The notes under the pieces: model-generated
Seen by the model: only the letters and a program-made list of their open reading frames with translations
Database searches by the model: none
What the model was told of the DNA's origin: nothing
Assembly (NCBI GenBank): GCA_005799525.1
Contig: SYGN01000290.1
Coordinates: forward strand, 1-64,000
From: Opitutaceae bacterium
Lineage (GTDB): Bacteria; Verrucomicrobiota; Verrucomicrobiia; Opitutales; Opitutaceae
DNA: 64,000 nucleotides
Direction of reading: 5' to 3'
Part shown: piece after piece, positions 363-9,289 of the stretch
Position numbering within the stretch: the stretch's first letter is position 1
Layout: every line of letters starts with the position of its first letter
Made by a program: the position numbers and the translations under genes

Positions 363-1769
363 TTAGCTGCCCGGGTAGAGCGCAGCGAGGTGGTGCCAGG
401 TTTCGTGAAGCGCGCCGTTGACAGCGATGGGCGGGCGCACGCGGTCGCGCGTGAAGTAGCGGAGGCGGACGGTGGCGGCGCGAAGATTGGGGAAGGACGG
501 AATTTTCGTCGCGAGCTCGGCGCGGAGAGCGGCAGGGGAACGAACCGCGCCCCATTTGCACTCGCCCAATTCGATCACGCCATCGTCGCGGAGGGCGACA
601 GTGTCGATCTGCACATCCTTCGCCCAAAATTCGCCGATGGTGGTGGTGGTGGTGATTGTTTCCGCAGCGTGGAGCAGCGGAATCGCTTCGCGGCAGAGAC
701 GTTCGAAGGCTTCGCCGCAGAAGGCGTCGAAGTGCGGACGGACGAGTTCGCGCACCGAGTGCTCGGGGCCGAGGACGGGGATGCGGCTGAGGTTGGGATA
801 GACAAAACGAAACCAGAAACGGAGGAGCGGATCGGCGATGGCGTAACGGGTCTCGCGCGCGGTGTTGGCGGCACCGTGGAGCGGATGGCGGCGGCGCACG
901 TAACCGAGCTCCATGAGCGTGCCGAGGTAGTAGGGGAGGGCGCGGTCGCCGAGGCCGGCGGCGCGGGCGATGCCGCCGTTGGTGGTTTCGCCAAGCGCGG
1001 CCATGGCGTGGAGGACGCCGTGGTAGTTGGCGACATCCCGGAGTTCCTCGCGGAGGAGAAACTCAGGTTCCCGGGCCAGCGCGGCGCTGTCGCGGAAAAA
1101 ATTGGCAGCGAGGTTTTGCTCGATCGAGCGGTCGCGGTCGAAGCACTCCAGGTAAGCGGGGAGGCCGCCGCAGACGAAGTAGGCTTGGGCATGATCGGCG
1201 TGAGACCAGCCCGGGTGAAACGCAGCCGACCCGCGGAAGCCGAAGGGGCGCAGGAGGAGCTGGGCGGTGCGGCGGCCGAAGAGTGGGCTTTTTTTGCCGA
1301 GGACCTCGCGCTCCATGAACCCGAGGTAGGAGCCGCAGAGGATGAGCATGATCTTGCCGGACTTTTGCCAACGGCGATCCCACGCCTCTTGAATGACACT
1401 GGGTAATTCGGGACTGCTCTCGGTGGTCCACTGGAATTCGTCGAGCGCGATGAGGAGTTTACCCGGGCCTTTCCAGCGTTCGTCGACGAGGCGGAAGGCT
1501 TCGGCCCAGGTCTCGACGGGGACTTGGGCGAGGAGCGGTTCGTCGAGGGTGACGGCGGCGAGCTGGAGAAACTCCCGGCGCTGGAGCAGTGCGGGCCCTT
1601 GCTTGCCCACGTGGTAGATGGCGGGCTTGCCGACAGCGAACTCGACAATGAGGCGGCTCTTGCCGGTGCGCCGCCGACCGTAAATGGGGATGAAGGCGGA
1701 ACGTGGGCCGGTCCACGCCGCGGCGAGCTCGGCGAGCTCGGTGGCGCGACCGAAGAAGGACGGGGCCAT
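363..1769 (-). CDS. Archaeal-type AAA ATPase with DUF234-like C-terminal region
   Basis: FFGRATELAELAAAW, Walker A-like YGRRRTGKSRLIVEF, LIALDEFQW Walker B, C-terminal nuclease-like segment (DVQIDTVALRDDGVIELGECKW). Confidence 0.85.
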   Translation of the reverse strand: MAPSFFGRATELAELAAAWTGPRSAFIPIYGRRRTGKSRLIVEFAVGKPAIYHVGKQGPALLQRREFLQLAAVTLDEPLLAQVPVETWAEAFRLVDERWKGPGKLLIALDEFQWTTESSPELPSVIQEAWDRRWQKSGKIMLILCGSYLGFMEREVLGKKSPLFGRRTAQLLLRPFGFRGSAAFHPGWSHADHAQAYFVCGGLPAYLECFDRDRSIEQNLAANFFRDSAALAREPEFLLREELRDVANYHGVLHAMAALGETTNGGIARAAGLGDRALPYYLGTLMELGYVRRRHPLHGAANTARETRYAIADPLLRFWFRFVYPNLSRIPVLGPEHSVRELVRPHFDAFCGEAFERLCREAIPLLHAAETITTTTTIGEFWAKDVQIDTVALRDDGVIELGECKWGAVRSPAALRAELATKIPSFPNLRAATVRLRYFTRDRVRPPIAVNGALHETWHHLAALYPGS

Positions 1770-1795: not shown

Positions 1796-1821
1796 ACTTG
1801 TCAAGTCACGACTTGACAAGT
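1796..1821. promoter_or_regulatory. Two adjacent odd-centred palindromes ACTTGTCAAGT-cacg-ACTTGACAAGT, putative operator
   Basis: Direct reading: each arm is a palindrome (ACTTG-N-CAAGT) and the arms are exact reverse complements; lies ~27 bp upstream of the minus-strand ATPase start. Confidence 0.6.
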
Positions 1822-1874: not shown

Positions 1875-3812
1875 TTACGGCGCGGCCAGTTTGGCGGGGA
1901 CTGCGGAGGTTTGCACGCGCGCCTGAGCGGCGGCGATCAGGCGGCCGAGGAGTTCCGCGTAGCTCCAGTCGGCGAGTCCGGCCATGATGGCGGGATCGTC
2001 GTCCCAACGCCAACTGGGGTTCGGATTAACTTCGAGGAGCTTCAACGTGCCGTCGGCGGTAGCGCGGAAATCGATACGCGCAAAATCGCGGCAACCGAGG
2101 CGTTCGAAGAGTCGCTTTGAGTAATCATGGAGCAGGCCGAGTCGGTGTTTGTCGAGCCGGGCGGAGACGTAGCGGATGTCGGTCCAGTAGGGGGAATCGA
2201 GCCGGAATTTGGAATCGTAGGCGAGGATGTGGGGCAACGTGGCCGGCAACCGGGAATAATCCGCTTCGATGACGGGGAGCAGTTGGAAACCTTGCGCGGG
2301 GTTGCCGATGAGTCCGACGGTATATTCGGGGCCGGTGAGGAGTTCCTGCACCAGCAAGGCACGGCCGGGGAGCTCGGCGCGGAGCCGGGCGAGCGTGGCG
2401 ACGAGTTCAGCGCGGTTTTGCGCGATACTCTCGGCGGTGATGCCGACGCTGCCGTCGCCGCAGGCCGGTTTTACGATGACCGGGAAACTCGCGGGGGCGG
2501 GTAGCTCGGTATCGCGGGGACCGACGTAGAGTTCAAGCGGCACGGGGATGCCCATCGTAGCGGCGGCGGCGTTGACGACGGATTTGTCGAAGCAGATAGC
2601 GAGCGATGCGGGGCCGGAACCGGAGCACGGGACGCTCAGCATCTCGAGGAGTGCGGGAATGTGGAGCTCGTGGAGGGGCTCGTTGACGAAGCCTTCGTCG
2701 CAGAGATTGAGGGCGAAGGCGGGCGGGTGGGCGCGGAGATCAGCGGCGAGGGTGGCGTGGTTGTCGAGGAAGCGGAAACGGTAGCCGGGCAGTTCGGCGA
2801 GGGCCGTTTTGAGGTGCTGCACGGCGGTCAGATCTTCGGGCTGAAATTTACCGTCGAGTTTCACGGCATCGGCGAGGCGTGGGTCGCCGAGGATGACGGC
2901 CACGTCGGAAATATCTGGGCGGCGGGAGACGGTGTGGGATGCGCGGGTGGGGAGTTTGCTGGGGGTGTGTGCGGTGACGAAGACGCGGTGCGCCATCATG
3001 CCGAGATCTTGATTGCGGTCGGATCCGCTCAAAATGGTGCCGTGATCGCAGGGGCGGACGAAACCGCCGGCAAGGAGGAGGGTGTGGAGTTGTTCGCGCG
3101 CGTAAAGACGTTCGGCGTAGAATTGATCGACGAGGACGCCGCGCTCGGTGTGGGTGACGACTTCACGGCAGACGAGGCGCGTGCCATCGGCGGAGAGCAT
3201 GCGTTCGCGGCAGACGAAGTGGTGCCGGTCGATCCATTCCCACGACCGAGGCTCAAAATTTTTCCGCACCCAATCTCCGTCGGAAATATCCATCGCGAGG
3301 ATACCACCGGGACGCAGCGCGGCGCGGACGGCGGCGAGCACGGCGAGATCCTCGGCTTGGCAATCGAAGTAACCGAAGGAGTTGCCCAGAATGGCGACGC
3401 CGTCGAAGGGGGTGTCGGTGGCGGGAAGCGAGCGGGCGTCACCCTCGAGGAAATTGACGGTGAGGCGTGCGGCGCGGGCGCGGCGGCGCGCGAGTTGGAT
3501 GAGGTAGTGCGAGCGGTCGAGGCCGGTGAGGTGGCCGAAGCCGCGGCCGGCGAGTTCGAGACTGTGGCGGCCTTGACCGCAGCACAGGTCGAGCACGCGG
3601 GCGCTGGGCTTGAGGCCGGTGGCGGCGAGGAGGAGGTCGACGTCGGCGGTGGTGTTGGCGGCGTTTTCCACGACGTCGCCGTCGGTCTTGACGTAGGTGG
3701 CGTTGAAGAGCGTGCGCCACCAGTCGGCGGGGAGATGGCGTTCGAGGTCGGCGACGGGGCCGAGGGTGCGGGATTTTTTTGACAGAAGACGGGGTGAGGA
3801 GGGGGCGACCAT
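1875..3812 (-). CDS. Fusion protein: N-terminal class I SAM methyltransferase and C-terminal ATP-grasp (D-Ala-D-Ala ligase-like)
   Basis: N-term VLDLCCGQGRHSLELAGRG SAM motif; C-term PVIVKPACGDGSVGI, LLVQELLTGPEYTVGLIGN, DFARIDFRATADGTLKLLEVNPNPS ATP-grasp motifs; single uninterrupted ORF. Confidence 0.85.
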   Translation of the reverse strand: MVAPSSPRLLSKKSRTLGPVADLERHLPADWWRTLFNATYVKTDGDVVENAANTTADVDLLLAATGLKPSARVLDLCCGQGRHSLELAGRGFGHLTGLDRSHYLIQLARRRARAARLTVNFLEGDARSLPATDTPFDGVAILGNSFGYFDCQAEDLAVLAAVRAALRPGGILAMDISDGDWVRKNFEPRSWEWIDRHHFVCRERMLSADGTRLVCREVVTHTERGVLVDQFYAERLYAREQLHTLLLAGGFVRPCDHGTILSGSDRNQDLGMMAHRVFVTAHTPSKLPTRASHTVSRRPDISDVAVILGDPRLADAVKLDGKFQPEDLTAVQHLKTALAELPGYRFRFLDNHATLAADLRAHPPAFALNLCDEGFVNEPLHELHIPALLEMLSVPCSGSGPASLAICFDKSVVNAAAATMGIPVPLELYVGPRDTELPAPASFPVIVKPACGDGSVGITAESIAQNRAELVATLARLRAELPGRALLVQELLTGPEYTVGLIGNPAQGFQLLPVIEADYSRLPATLPHILAYDSKFRLDSPYWTDIRYVSARLDKHRLGLLHDYSKRLFERLGCRDFARIDFRATADGTLKLLEVNPNPSWRWDDDPAIMAGLADWSYAELLGRLIAAAQARVQTSAVPAKLAAP

Positions 3813-3822
3813 ACGTCAGGGG

Positions 3823-4719
3823 TTATTTCAATTCGAACCAAACGGGGGTGAGGTCAGTGGGCTCGCCATTGTAGTTCATGACGATTTCTTCGCCGGCGGC
3901 GATGTCGCGGAGGGCGACGAAATGGATGAGGTGCTCGTCGAGCTGAAGCCGGTAGCGGGCGCTGGGGGTGAAGGAGTGGTTGTAGAGAGAGGCGTAGCCG
4001 AGGGCGATCGCGGTGTGGGCGTGCTCCGGCCCCCACTCAAAACAGTAGTGGTAGAGCTGGGTTTTTTCGAGGTTGGGCCACTCGGTATCGGGGCTGATGA
4101 TGACTGGGGCGCGTTCAAAAAGCTCGCCGGCGGCGATGGGCGCGGTGGCGAAGACGCCGCGGCCTTTGCCGGGTACGGGGCCGAGGCGGAGTTTGGTGCC
4201 GGGCGCGACGGGGGTCGGATTTTCGTAGCCGCGCACCCGGTAACGATCCACGCGGCCGACGCAGGCGGGCGCGCCGCAGCGGCATTTAAAGGTCCAGCGA
4301 GCGTCCCAGAAAAATGAGGACGGGGCGGCGAGCCACTCGGCCATGGTGACGGAGTCGTAGCTGAACGTGAGTTCTTCGCCCTCGGCGATGGCGCGCGTGG
4401 TGATGACGGCGAGCGTATCATCGACGGTGCAGTTGGGCGCACAGGAGTGGTTGATGAAACGGGCGGCGGTCGTGGGGACCATCCACTCTTTGCCCTCGAG
4501 GAGAATCGCGTGGCACACCTCGGAAACGGGCACGTCGCGCCACAAAACGGTGGGACCGGCGAAGCGCTCTACGGTGGTGCCGCCAGCAAGGGCGGTGGTG
4601 GCAAAGAGCCCTTGGTCAGGTCCGGTGACGGAGGATACGCGGCTGGGGAAGGGGTGAGAAGAAGTGGCCAAAGGTGAACGGAGGAAGCGCGAGACAATCG
4701 GGGCTACGGCGCAAATCAA
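3823..4719 (-). CDS. Tandem SET-domain protein (two SET-like repeats)
   Basis: First SET: GLFATTALAGG...FINHSCAPNC...AIAEGEELTFSYDS then CRCGAPACVG post-SET-like cysteines; second: GRGVFATAPIAAGELFE...LYNHSFTPSARY...DIAAGEEIVMNYN. Start uncertain (TTG in track). Confidence 0.8.
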   Translation of the reverse strand: MICAVAPIVSRFLRSPLATSSHPFPSRVSSVTGPDQGLFATTALAGGTTVERFAGPTVLWRDVPVSEVCHAILLEGKEWMVPTTAARFINHSCAPNCTVDDTLAVITTRAIAEGEELTFSYDSVTMAEWLAAPSSFFWDARWTFKCRCGAPACVGRVDRYRVRGYENPTPVAPGTKLRLGPVPGKGRGVFATAPIAAGELFERAPVIISPDTEWPNLEKTQLYHYCFEWGPEHAHTAIALGYASLYNHSFTPSARYRLQLDEHLIHFVALRDIAAGEEIVMNYNGEPTDLTPVWFELK

Positions 4720-4839: not shown

Positions 4840-7218
4840 TCAACGTTTCTTGTTCAACGCGGCGGCGAACCAGTCGTTGTTCACTGCGGCCGGTGGGCGA
4901 GGTGCGGCCGGTGCGCCGCCACCGGGGCGGGGGCCGCTGCCGGGTGAGCGCTGGCCGCCGGGGCTGCCGGTATTCGCGGTTTTGGGACCGAGGGTGGGAT
5001 TGCTGCGCATCGAGAGTGCGATGCGGTTGCGCGGGAGATCGATTTCCGTGACGGTGACCTGAACTTTTTGGCCGGGCTTCACGACGGTCGAGGGTTCTTT
5101 CACAAAGGAGTCGGCGAGCTGGCTGACGTGTACGAGGCCGTCTTGATGGACGCCGCTGTCGACGAAGGCACCGAACGCGGTGACTTTGGTCACTATGCCG
5201 GGGAGTTTCATGCCGGGTTTGAGATCCTCGGGCCGGTGCACCTCGGCGGAGAAGGCGAAGACTTCGAATTTCTCGCGCGGATCACGGCCTGGTTTCGCGA
5301 GCTCGACCATGATGTCGGTAAGCGTCGGGAGACCGACTTCGGGCGTGACGTAGGTTTCGAGTTTGATTTTCGCGCGGAGTTTTCCGTCGCTGATCAGCTC
5401 GGGGACTGTGGTGCCGAGGTCGGCGGCCATTTTTTCGACGAGCGGGTAACGCTCCGGATGAACGGAGCTCGCGTCGAGTGGGTGCGCGGCATCGCGGATC
5501 CGCAGGAAGCCGGCCGCTTGCTCGTAGGCCTTGGGGCCGAGGCGCGGGACGTCCCTAAGGTCGGCGCGGGATTTGAAGGGGCCCTTTTCGTTGCGGCGCG
5601 CGACAATCGCGGCAGCGGTCGCGGCGTTGAGACCGGAGACGTAGCTGAGGAGTTGTTTCGAAGCGGTGTTAAGCTCGACGCCGACGCCGTTAACGGAGCT
5701 GACGACGGTATCGTCGAGGGAACGTTTGAGTGCGGCTTGGTCGACGTCGTGTTGGTATTGGCCGACGCCGATAGATTTTGGGTCGAGCTTTACGAGCTCG
5801 GCGAGCGGATCCATGAGACGGCGGCCGATGGAGACAGCGCCGCGCACCGTGAGATCGTGGTCGGGGAATTCTTCGCGGGCGACATCGCTAGCGGAGTAAA
5901 TCGAGGCGCCGGACTCGTTGACCATGACGATGGGAATCGCGCCGGAGAGGCCGAGCGTTCGGACGAAGGCTTCGGTCTCGCGCCCCGCGGTGCCGTTGCC
6001 GATGGCGACGGCCTCGACGTGGAAGAACTTCACGAAGCCGGTGAGCTTTTCCTTCGCCTCGACCTCCATGCGGTCGGGAAAAACGACGTCGTTGTGGAGG
6101 AGTTTTCCCTGACGATCGAGGATGACGACTTTGCAGCCGGTGCGGATGCCGGGGTCGATGGCCATCACGGCTTTTTGCCCGAGTGGGGCGGCGAGGAGGA
6201 GTTCGCGGAGATTGTCGGCGAAGACTTTGATGCCGGCTTCGTCCGCGCGCTTCTTGGATTCGAGACGCATCTCGGTTTCCATCGAGGGGCAGAGGAGACG
6301 TTTGCAGGAATCCTGCACGGCGAGGACGACCTGGGTGGCGCAGGAGTTGAGCGTTGAGGGTTGAGAGCCCAGAGTCGTTTTGACGAAGAACTGCTGCACT
6401 TCGGCGAAGGCGGTGGCCTCGTCGGGGAGTTGCACGCGCATCATGAGGAAAAGTTCTTTCTCGCCACGGCGCATGGCGAGGACGCGGTGGGAAGGGGCTT
6501 TGTTCAGCGGCTCGCTCCACTCGAAATAGTCTTTGAACTTCGAAGCTTCGACGGAGCTGTCTTTGCCAGTGAGGACTTTCGAGGAGATGATCGCGTCTTT
6601 TTGGTAAACGGCGCGGAGCTTGGCGCGGGCGTCTTTGTCGTCGCTTACGCGCTCGGCGATGATGTCGCGGGCACCGGCGAAGGCTTCGTCGGTGGAGGCG
6701 ATTTTGGAAACGACGTTTTTGCCGTCGTCAGCGGTGTAGTCCCGGCCGACGTAGGCCTGCGCGGCGGCGAGGGCGTCGGTGGTCGGGTCTTGGGCCCAGA
6801 GCAGTTCGGACAGGGGTTCGAGGCCTTTTTCTTTCGCGATGGTGGCGCGAGTGCGTTTCTTCGGACGGAAGGGGAGGTAAATGTCCTCGAGGACCGCGAG
6901 GGTGTCGGCGGCGTTGATGGATTTTTCGAGCGCGGGCGTGAGGAGGTTGCGCTCTTTGAGTGACGAGAGAATGGCGGCGCGGCGCTCGTCGATGGCCTTC
7001 ATCTGCTCGAGGCGGTCGCGGATGGCGAGCACCTGGACCTCGTCGAGTTCGCCGGTGACCTCTTTGCGGTAGCGGGCGATGAAGGGCACGGTCGCGCCTT
7101 CGGCGAAGAGTTGGGCGGTGGCCGCGACTTGATAGACCTTGATGTTCAGCTCGGCCGCGAGGCGGAGGACATGGTCGGGATTGGGTTGAGTGGAGGCCGG
7201 GGAGGCGACAGCGGACAT
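4840..7218 (-). CDS. tex: Tex-family RNA-binding transcriptional accessory protein (S1 domain)
   Basis: Tex N-terminal motifs, FIARYRKEVTGELDEVQVLAIRDRLEQ, YqgF-like MAIDPGIRTGCKVVILD, S1 domain LPGIVTKVTAFGAFVDSGVHQDGLVHVSQL; start chosen at MSAVASP. Confidence 0.93.
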   Translation of the reverse strand: MSAVASPASTQPNPDHVLRLAAELNIKVYQVAATAQLFAEGATVPFIARYRKEVTGELDEVQVLAIRDRLEQMKAIDERRAAILSSLKERNLLTPALEKSINAADTLAVLEDIYLPFRPKKRTRATIAKEKGLEPLSELLWAQDPTTDALAAAQAYVGRDYTADDGKNVVSKIASTDEAFAGARDIIAERVSDDKDARAKLRAVYQKDAIISSKVLTGKDSSVEASKFKDYFEWSEPLNKAPSHRVLAMRRGEKELFLMMRVQLPDEATAFAEVQQFFVKTTLGSQPSTLNSCATQVVLAVQDSCKRLLCPSMETEMRLESKKRADEAGIKVFADNLRELLLAAPLGQKAVMAIDPGIRTGCKVVILDRQGKLLHNDVVFPDRMEVEAKEKLTGFVKFFHVEAVAIGNGTAGRETEAFVRTLGLSGAIPIVMVNESGASIYSASDVAREEFPDHDLTVRGAVSIGRRLMDPLAELVKLDPKSIGVGQYQHDVDQAALKRSLDDTVVSSVNGVGVELNTASKQLLSYVSGLNAATAAAIVARRNEKGPFKSRADLRDVPRLGPKAYEQAAGFLRIRDAAHPLDASSVHPERYPLVEKMAADLGTTVPELISDGKLRAKIKLETYVTPEVGLPTLTDIMVELAKPGRDPREKFEVFAFSAEVHRPEDLKPGMKLPGIVTKVTAFGAFVDSGVHQDGLVHVSQLADSFVKEPSTVVKPGQKVQVTVTEIDLPRNRIALSMRSNPTLGPKTANTGSPGGQRSPGSGPRPGGGAPAAPRPPAAVNNDWFAAALNKKR

Positions 7219-7435
7219 GCGTGGAAACGGCCGAGCAGAGCGCGCGGCGGGGCGTGCGCAATCTCCAAAATGACTGCGGACGCCGTTGCCTCTGAAAAAA
7301 AGGAAGCGACCTGCTGGCGGCCTTTGAACCGCAGAAGACGGACAGTCTGACCGAGAGGGAGCCGGAATAAACAACCAAAACTTGTCTCGACCCTGGGTGT
7401 GTGCGCCTCTTTTTTTCATCGGTCCTTTTTCAACG

Positions 7436-9289
7436 ATGTCCGCCATCAATCGCTTCCTCCTCGAAAACAAACTTCGTATCGCGACGAATCCCTGCGTGTC
7501 GCCCGACTTTTGTCTCGATTGGTCGGCGCTGCGCGACGAGCTCCGCGCCGGCAAGGCGATGAAGGTTTACGCGAAGAGCCGATTTGGGACGGCCGCGGGC
7601 GCGTTCACTCTGGTGGAAAACGTCCAAGGCGACTGCGCGTGGCGACTGCAGGGCGATGCGGGGAAGGCGGATACGTTGCACGACGCGGTGGCACTCACGG
7701 ATGGCACGACGGTGTTTCCCGCGACCTTTGCGAACCTGCTGCAACTGAAGAACCTCATCCAGGCGCACCACGCGGCCTCGACGATTTTCCCCACCGCCAC
7801 CGAACAGCTCGGGCGCAGCACGCTCGGGATCGGCGCACGTTTCACGACCCTGCACTGGCCAGCCGTCGAGTGGGCGATGAGCGCGTTGAGTCTCGGCGTG
7901 ACGGCGAACCAGAATTCGATTCCGCGTGAGCTCGTCTACGACACCGATGTCATGCTCGCGGGCAAGCTCGACACGGTGCCGTTTCCGTTCATCGGCACCC
8001 ACGTGCCCGAGGGCCACCAAGGTCAGAGCGTCGAAGGCATGAGCCACGGTTGCGTGCTCTCGAAACTGAAAACCGGTTTTCACCGCCGCGGGATTGCGTG
8101 GAGCTTCAACGCGGACCACCAACCCATCGGCGGAAAATTTGACTCGCGTGAAGACGCGCTCGTCACCGGGTGTGTGCTCGCGAGCTACATCACGTTCGAT
8201 CTCTCGCCCGAACTCGCGCAGACGACCGTCGCCGATGACGCCGGCGGGTGGGTCGCAGCCCATGTCCCGGCCGCGCTCGTCGCGACGGTGAAGGCACGGG
8301 TGGCGAAAGCTGGCCTCACTTTGAATGAAGCCGAATTCGCTAGGCTCCTCGCCCACGTCTGGCCGTCGCTGCAAAAGATGAAAGTCCGCGACGAGAAATA
8401 CGCCGCCGCGCGCGCCAAGCTTTTCACGACCGCCGCCGGCCGGGCCTACTTGCGCGAACTCTCGATCGACGAACTGCCCGGCCTCACCACTGCCGAGACC
8501 ACGGCTATTATGCTCGCGCTCTGTGAGGCTTTGGGGATGAAGATCCACTTCGTCGCGCCTGCGTTCGGCTTCCAGAAAAACATGCCCTATCCCGACAACG
8601 CCGCGCTGCGCTCGCTGATCGAGAAGCAGTGGGCGGTGTGTCAGAATTTCGGTGCGAGCATCGGTTTCCACTCGGGCTCCGGAAAATCGGCCGAGAATTA
8701 TCAAGTCATGGGCCAAGTCACGGGCAGCCGGCTCGAAATCAAGACGAGCGGCCGTTACACCTACGAGATGGGTCGAGCGCTGTTTACCTCGAAGAATGCG
8801 GCCGATCAGGCCCTGTGGCGCGATTGGTACAAGTTCACCCTCGAGCTTGCGCTGCTCGGTGCTTTCAGCGCCGACGCCACGGAACGGAAGATGGCGCGGA
8901 TGTTCGTCACCGATGCGCTCGCGAAGTCCGGCCAGTCGACCGACGTGTTCGCCGACCCGACCGCCACGCGCGGTGCGCTCGCAGCGCTGGCGGCCAGCCC
9001 CGAGCACATGTTTTGGTTTGAATATAATTTCCTCCACGTGCTCGCCGCCGGCGGTCGCGCGGAGAAGGCTGCGCTGGGCGACCACACGCCGGCGGGTTAT
9101 CAGCAACGAGCCCGTTTCTATGCGATCAGCGACGAAGGCCGGCTCAATTTTTCAAAAAACATCGCGAGCTACATCGTGTTTCTCGCCGAAAACACCGGCC
9201 TCGCGCCCGCCGTGACCTGCGTCGCTGCGCACAAGCTCCTCGCTGGCTACACGTCGCTCGACGCGATGCTGAACGATATTTCCAGGTAA
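7436..9289 (+). CDS. Tagaturonate epimerase (UxaE)-like protein
   Basis: Segment SIGFHSGSGKSAENYQVMGQVTGSRLEIKTSGRYTYEMGRAL resembles UxaE family; adjacent to uxaC. Confidence 0.7.
   Translation: MSAINRFLLENKLRIATNPCVSPDFCLDWSALRDELRAGKAMKVYAKSRFGTAAGAFTLVENVQGDCAWRLQGDAGKADTLHDAVALTDGTTVFPATFANLLQLKNLIQAHHAASTIFPTATEQLGRSTLGIGARFTTLHWPAVEWAMSALSLGVTANQNSIPRELVYDTDVMLAGKLDTVPFPFIGTHVPEGHQGQSVEGMSHGCVLSKLKTGFHRRGIAWSFNADHQPIGGKFDSREDALVTGCVLASYITFDLSPELAQTTVADDAGGWVAAHVPAALVATVKARVAKAGLTLNEAEFARLLAHVWPSLQKMKVRDEKYAAARAKLFTTAAGRAYLRELSIDELPGLTTAETTAIMLALCEALGMKIHFVAPAFGFQKNMPYPDNAALRSLIEKQWAVCQNFGASIGFHSGSGKSAENYQVMGQVTGSRLEIKTSGRYTYEMGRALFTSKNAADQALWRDWYKFTLELALLGAFSADATERKMARMFVTDALAKSGQSTDVFADPTATRGALAALAASPEHMFWFEYNFLHVLAAGGRAEKAALGDHTPAGYQQRARFYAISDEGRLNFSKNIASYIVFLAENTGLAPAVTCVAAHKLLAGYTSLDAMLNDISR

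Follow-up and report, generated by a model that had tools for sequence, protein, structure and literature searches.

A compact gene pair on the minus strand of the window (the whole 64,000-nucleotide stretch of Opitutaceae DNA analyzed here) encodes a protein with two SET domains and, directly downstream, a class I SAM methyltransferase fused to a Ddl-like ATP-grasp ligase. In the model put forward below, which we hold with roughly even confidence, the two genes form a compact tailoring unit, specific to their lineage, that would combine amide ligation, N-methylation and SET-dependent side-chain methylation of an amino acid or a short peptide. The domain content of the pair, its spacing, the purifying selection acting on it, the motifs of its ligase and methyltransferase and a recurring neighborhood of the second SET domain with ATP-grasp genes are read directly from the sequences.

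Architecture of the Gene Pair

The tandem SET protein (3823..4719, minus strand; 298 aa, TTG start) matches the Pfam family PF00856 over two stretches, with 102.4 bits and an E-value of 2e-29, which is above the gathering score. The first core, SET1, spans residues 27-123 (4351..4641, minus strand) with the motifs FINHSCAPN and GEELTFSY and is followed by a post-SET-like CxCx4C segment (CRCGAPAC, residues 146-153; 4261..4284, minus strand), while the second core, SET2, spans residues 186-284 (3868..4164, minus strand) with LYNHSFTPSA and GEEIVMNY and is a member of a family of stand-alone SET proteins of ~130 aa. An intergenic spacer of only 10 nt from stop to start (3813..3822, minus strand) leads to the gene of the methyltransferase/ATP-grasp fusion protein (1875..3812, minus strand; 645 aa, ATG start), in which the methyltransferase (MT) domain with its DLCCGQGRH motif (residues 50-282; 2967..3665, minus strand) precedes the ATP-grasp (AG) domain (residues 300-636; 1905..2915, minus strand). 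Pfam profiles place the N-terminal half in the methyltransferase family PF13649 (70 bits, residues 73-170) and the C-terminal half in Dala_Dala_lig_C, PF07478 (66 bits, residues 441-602); only methyltransferase and Ddl/ATP-grasp families match the fusion, and no TTL domain was detected by Pfam. This layout had been claimed by an earlier sequence-only reading, and its minus-strand ORF at 4719-3823 with two SET-like cores, the CxCxxxxC segment in the first SET, and the 645-aa ORF 10 nt downstream (3812-1875) carrying a class I SAM methyltransferase and then a Ddl-like ATP-grasp domain were all recovered, coordinates and motifs included.

The genes on either side are given for context only. A Tex gene lies upstream on the same strand (4840..7554, minus strand), as it also does in three of the related loci (L035-L037), and a gene for an AAA ATPase with a DUF234 domain lies downstream (363..1769, minus strand). 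The latter is intact in locus L034, 5′-truncated in L035 and broken in L036, and since the pair itself is intact in L035 and L036, the AAA gene is placed outside the module. Beside the pair there is no transporter, NRPS or precursor gene, and no conserved target gene is found near it; judged by the gaps, which measure 10 nt within the pair and about 120 nt on its upstream side, there would be little room for a graspetide precursor gene. The interval that separates the AAA-DUF234 gene from the fusion gene contains, at window positions 1796-1821, a near-perfect palindrome, ACTTGTCAAGTC-(GT)-GACTTGACAAGT, which is also present in L034 and L094 but missing from the sequence that follows the pair in L035, and which may be a candidate operator or a weak terminator.

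Conservation within the Opitutaceae

The pair is present in five of the nine genomes of the window's genus, the other four being without the SET protein, and its carriers are a few freshwater bacteria. It is shared with four other MAGs at 91-99% protein identity (95-96% for the SET protein among the pair-carrying genomes of the genus; 91-98% for the fusion, at full length, in the three relatives aligned whole), and near-identical pairs are encoded by records of Opitutus sp. GAS368 / Opitutae bacterium. In all five pair-carrying genomes, including loci L034-L037, the spacer measures 10 nt and the SET gene starts with TTG. Such a recurrence goes beyond chance, and the claim of a genuine two-gene unit holds. 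Relative to these homologs, the omega values are 0.19-0.29 for SET1, 0.07-0.14 for SET2, 0.15-0.22 for MT and 0.17 for AG; by this measure, purifying selection acts on each of the four domains, and between the SET halves the constraint is stronger on SET2. As neighbors, the two genes are confined to one genus. The expectation that the pair would be conserved as neighbors is thus borne out within that genus, in five of nine genomes, but not elsewhere, where the fusion occurs with no SET gene beside it.

The Two SET Domains

SET1 is closest to genes of three planctomycete genomes (G784, G745 and G670), and the cysteines of its CxCx4C segment are invariant in these three closest relatives, in agreement with a post-SET zinc motif. 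The closest relatives of SET2, on the other hand, belong to the widespread stand-alone family (~130 aa) and come from planctomycetes and from Bacillaceae plasmids. By this comparison, the two halves are not a recent duplication, and SET1 and SET2 are of different origins. The NHS and GEE..Y motifs are present in both halves and are conserved in their relatives.

The sequence-only reading had raised the possibility that SET2, which carries NHSF instead of NHSC, is non-catalytic. That suggestion finds no support and is rejected, as the alignment of the stand-alone family shows NHS[Y/F] to be normal, with NHSY in most members, as the solved relatives have NHDR (PfSET7) and NHSK (vSET) at the same position, and as SET2 is the more constrained half; NHSF gives no ground for calling the domain inactive. 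The SET2 family profile matches PfSET7 (E 2e-28) and vSET (E 4e-23) over the whole core, and the SET1 profile matches BurB with 37.7 bits. The predicted structure of the tandem SET protein, built from five near-identical sequences, has a pLDDT of 29.

Two separate observations concern relatives of these domains. In another genome of the class, two adjacent SET1-type matches lie in tandem (G079:C90:54892-55656). On a plasmid of Agrobacterium vitis, a SET2-like gene precedes ectB and an NRPS gene (L137 4857-10340), a further case of a SET gene in an apparent metabolite cluster.

The Methyltransferase and Ligase Halves of the Fusion

In the alignment of 11 fusion members, the AG residues K410, K448, E490, R579, D581, E594 and N596 are invariant throughout, as are the SAM motif DLCCGQGRH (residues 75-83), D99 and D125 of MT. 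In a profile match over about 240-265 residues, the invariant AG positions, which are of the ATP/Mg-binding type, align with VanA and Ddl structures, and catalytic-type residues are kept in both the methyltransferase and the ligase. The fusion nevertheless scores only 88 bits against the Ddl models, the cut-offs of which are 243 (NF002378) and 245.65 (TIGR01205), and the host has a Ddl of its own (G000:C262) that scores 151.6 bits against PF07478 vs 69.3 for the fusion; being far under the Ddl cut-offs and accompanied by a separate genomic Ddl, the fusion is distinct from the housekeeping ligase. Among PDB sequences, the best match of MT is the bacillithiol N-methyltransferase NmbA (9ri2; 105.7 bits, E 1.4e-29). 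In the predicted structure of the fusion (pLDDT 71), the two halves separately match small-molecule/peptide methyltransferases and Ddl; the structural neighbors of MT include CypM, a peptide N-terminal methyltransferase, and the Foldseek comparison with NmbA, which addressed a class I fold with a related cap domain, gives an E-value of 9e-16 with an rmsd of about 9, on a model of medium confidence.

Stand-alone relatives of AG share only about 27-37% identity with the ligase of the window. Among the 20 verrucomicrobial loci around the best stand-alone AG relatives, the ligase is adjoined in 19 by a gene for a zinc-peptidase-like protein (peptidase_Mx-like) with an HExxH motif, and the contig of the 20th ends at that point; this couple of a Ddl-like ligase and a peptidase is conserved across L005-L028 and L046-L065. 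In nine genomes of Planctomycetota (L109, L113, L114, L120 and L127-L131), ATP-grasp genes, often in tandem, are adjoined by radical SAM genes of the lysine-2,3-aminomutase type. These neighbors suggest peptide-bond chemistry for the relatives of AG and, in one group, lysine-like substrates.

The Fusion Family outside the Genus

Full-length fusions at about 47-59% identity were found in 7 of 294 genomes of the Planctomycetota group, a set chosen around a planctomycete center, which brings the 645-aa family to 12 genomes in total here. The seven distant homologs are free of internal stops, and the suspicion that the fusion might be an assembly artefact is thereby removed. Among 286 genomes of the same class, none contains a full-length fusion relative besides the window's own, and a search around G775 gave no further fusions beyond that of G775 itself. 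A mobile origin is likewise rejected, with no fusion relative on viral contigs and no full-length match on plasmids. The Opitutaceae copies are 58, 53 and 53% identical to the nearest three planctomycete-group fusions and 45-47% identical to the other four, pairwise values that hint at a transfer between the Opitutaceae and the planctomycete group.

In none of the seven planctomycete-group genomes does a SET gene stand beside the fusion. A SET relative at E<=0.001 occurs in only two of them (G784 and G745), where it is of the SET1 type (48% and 45%, respectively) and lies on another contig than the fusion, and the other five have none; the SET protein is thus not obligatory for the function of the fusion. 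So close a SET1 is present in just three of the 294 genomes, namely the two above and G670, which has no listed fusion. With 7 genomes holding the fusion and 3 holding SET1 among the 294, a simple hypergeometric calculation puts the probability of an overlap of at least 2 at about 0.0015, to be read with the relatedness of G784 and G745, the fusions of which are 87% identical and which bring the overlap close to one event.

Several features of these loci are recorded as they were seen. In G775, which has the closest fusion of the planctomycete group, about 10 nt separate the fusion from another methyltransferase gene on a 4-kb contig (L101 1-4044) that also contains a glycosyltransferase-like ORF, and one fusion has a HamA gene in its vicinity. 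A metallopeptidase pair, TldD/TldE (PmbA), is located upstream of the fusion in G550 (L124 1599-7954), and such a pair adjoins SET1 in G745 (L162 4865-8512), with TldD also present in G670; this possibly reflects a shared peptide theme.

A Second SET2-Ligase Neighborhood

The pairing of a SET protein with an ATP-grasp ligase, as had been proposed from the window, recurs in a second Opitutaceae lineage. G351 is the only Opitutaceae genome outside the window's genus with a SET2 match at E<=1e-12, and there the gene for SET2, which stands alone, overlaps with a same-strand gene for a Ddl-like ATP-grasp protein, while a second Ddl-like ATP-grasp gene adjoins it in convergent orientation, so that two of the three strong Ddl-type genes of this genome lie at the SET2 locus. 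By a rough estimate, the chance of such an adjacency in the 7.9-Mb genome is of the order of 0.1%. This independent association supports a real link between SET2 and the ligases; in the stretches examined around SET2 genes of planctomycetes and Bacillaceae plasmids, no ATP-grasp neighbor was found.

Proposed Model of Function

In the tailoring model, the Ddl-like ATP-grasp half would turn a carboxylate into an activated acyl phosphate and couple it to an amine through an amide bond, and the fused class I methyltransferase half would N-methylate (O-methylation being less likely) the same building block or the product. The presence of both in one chain would tie methylation to ligation in a 1:1 ratio. 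The double-SET protein would methylate a side chain of that amino acid or short peptide, most likely at a lysine-type amine. We infer that both genes serve one pathway and that its substrate would be an amino acid or peptide, not a cellular protein, and lysine-like; the link to lysine is made because relatives of the ligase, at about 27-37% identity, adjoin lysine-2,3-aminomutase genes. On the question of a small molecule or peptide vs a protein tail as the target, the context leans towards small molecules and peptides. That a SET domain can act on an amino acid is illustrated by BurB, a bacterial SET enzyme that methylates free methionine (PMC12542666).

The original proposal of an operon that methylates and ligates is thus upheld in part: the unit is real, its motifs are kept, it is under purifying selection and the adjacency in G351 speaks for it, but its two genes are neighbors in one genus only. 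A more specific version, in which SET lysine methylation and ATP-grasp chemistry act on one substrate and the methyltransferase/ATP-grasp protein joins an N-methylated block to a SET-methylated lysine or peptide tag, is tentative, and we think it rather improbable. If true, this joining to a SET-methylated lysine or tag would yield methylated conjugates, of peptide or protein, that form a class of their own and a new one.

Alternative Explanations

Most SET domains that have a post-SET motif act as protein lysine methyltransferases, and TTL-family ligases add amino acids to protein tails. An alternative, unlikely in our judgment, is protein modification, in which the SET domains would methylate lysines of a cellular protein and the ATP-grasp half would attach an amino acid or a capped residue to the tail of a protein. 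PfSET7 and PBCV-1 vSET, to which SET2 is most closely related among solved structures, are protein methyltransferases, and human TTLL12 unites a SET-like domain with one of the TTL ATP-grasp type in a single polypeptide; however, TTLL12 itself was without both activities in vitro (PMC3520985), the ligase of the pair is of the Ddl and not of the TTL type, the fused methyltransferase resembles small-molecule N-methyltransferases, and the vicinity of the pair offers no conserved target gene.

The two genes could also be neighbors by coincidence, the fusion being a stand-alone biosynthetic methyltransferase-ligase and the double-SET protein a methyltransferase of a ribosomal or chromosomal protein, which we consider just as doubtful. 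This explanation would account for fusions without SET in planctomycete-group genomes, for SET2 genes without a ligase in many bacteria and for the restriction of the pair to one genus, but it sits poorly with the invariant 10-nt spacer and the co-retention of the genes in five genomes, with the independent SET2/ATP-grasp adjacency in G351, and with the fact that two of the genomes with the closest SET1 genes also have close relatives of the fusion.

Glutathione, too, is made by ATP-grasp ligases, and bacillithiol synthesis ends with the enzyme BshC. A role in the biosynthesis or N-methylation of low-molecular-weight thiols, for which the top PDB match of MT to NmbA would speak, is nonetheless very unlikely, and a bacillithiol/NmbA pathway is rejected, since searches detected no BshC in three pair-carrying Opitutaceae genomes (G000, G384 and G386) or in four of the seven genomes of the planctomycete group that have the fusion, and MT is only about 25% identical to NmbA. 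Hardly any credence is given to a role in defence or conflict together with the AAA-DUF234 ATPase encoded downstream, suggested by the match of this ATPase to the candidate defence family PDC-S27 (177 bits), by the match of MT to PADLOC mad2 and by the HamA gene near one fusion, and rejected because the AAA partner decays where the pair is intact, the mad2 match covers the generic methyltransferase fold only and none of the PADLOC models recognizes the SET protein.

Relation to Known Systems

Each of the domains comes from a known family, and it is their combination that looks undescribed in the open-access literature: no description of a SET protein together with a methyltransferase-ligase was found there, and it may have been mentioned earlier, for example in an overview of bacterial SET genes or ATP-grasp operons. 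AG shares with the Ddl/VanA family (PF07478) the ATP-grasp fold and the ATP/Mg-binding-type residues; it departs from Ddl in its scores far under the cut-offs, in its fusion to a methyltransferase, in the presence of a separate Ddl elsewhere in the genome, and in having NPNPxWxWD after EVN, where Ddl has NTxPG. MT probably shares the class I fold of NmbA, its closest solved sequence (PDB 9ri2; PMC12719100), which differs in its low identity of about 25% and in being a 266-residue chain without a ligase domain; for bshC, a gene of the bacillithiol pathway, the searches of Opitutaceae hosts gave no match.

BurB (PDB 9l4t) is, like the SET protein of the pair, whose SET1 profile matches it, a bacterial SET protein, and one placed in a metabolite pathway; it is a methionine S-methyltransferase with a single SET domain, and the accessible portion of its report mentions no ATP-grasp partner (PMC12542666). 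PBCV-1 vSET and Plasmodium SET7, the closest solved relatives of SET2, share its ALGxGxxxNH core but are single-domain proteins with neither a post-SET-type SET1 nor a ligase partner. TTLL12, the only relevant case of a SET domain with ATP-grasp in the open-access literature, likewise brings together SET-type and ATP-grasp-type domains, but it does so in one chain, with a TTL-type ligase domain, and is reported inactive (PMC3520985), whereas the pair consists of separate genes, is of the Ddl type and conserves active-site-type residues. Predicted ATP-grasp peptide-ligase operons resemble the pair in combining such ligases with peptidases and amino-acid-modifying enzymes; in the portions of these papers available to us, they contain no SET protein and no such MT-Ddl fusion (PMC2922099, PMC8939145).

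The 645-aa family appears to be an undescribed bifunctional enzyme that is directly assayable. Bacterial SET domains have mostly been discussed as histone-directed effectors or as orphan protein methyltransferases. A conserved pair of a two-SET protein and a methylating amide ligase would mark SET enzymes as tools of peptide and amino-acid tailoring in Verrucomicrobiota and Planctomycetota.
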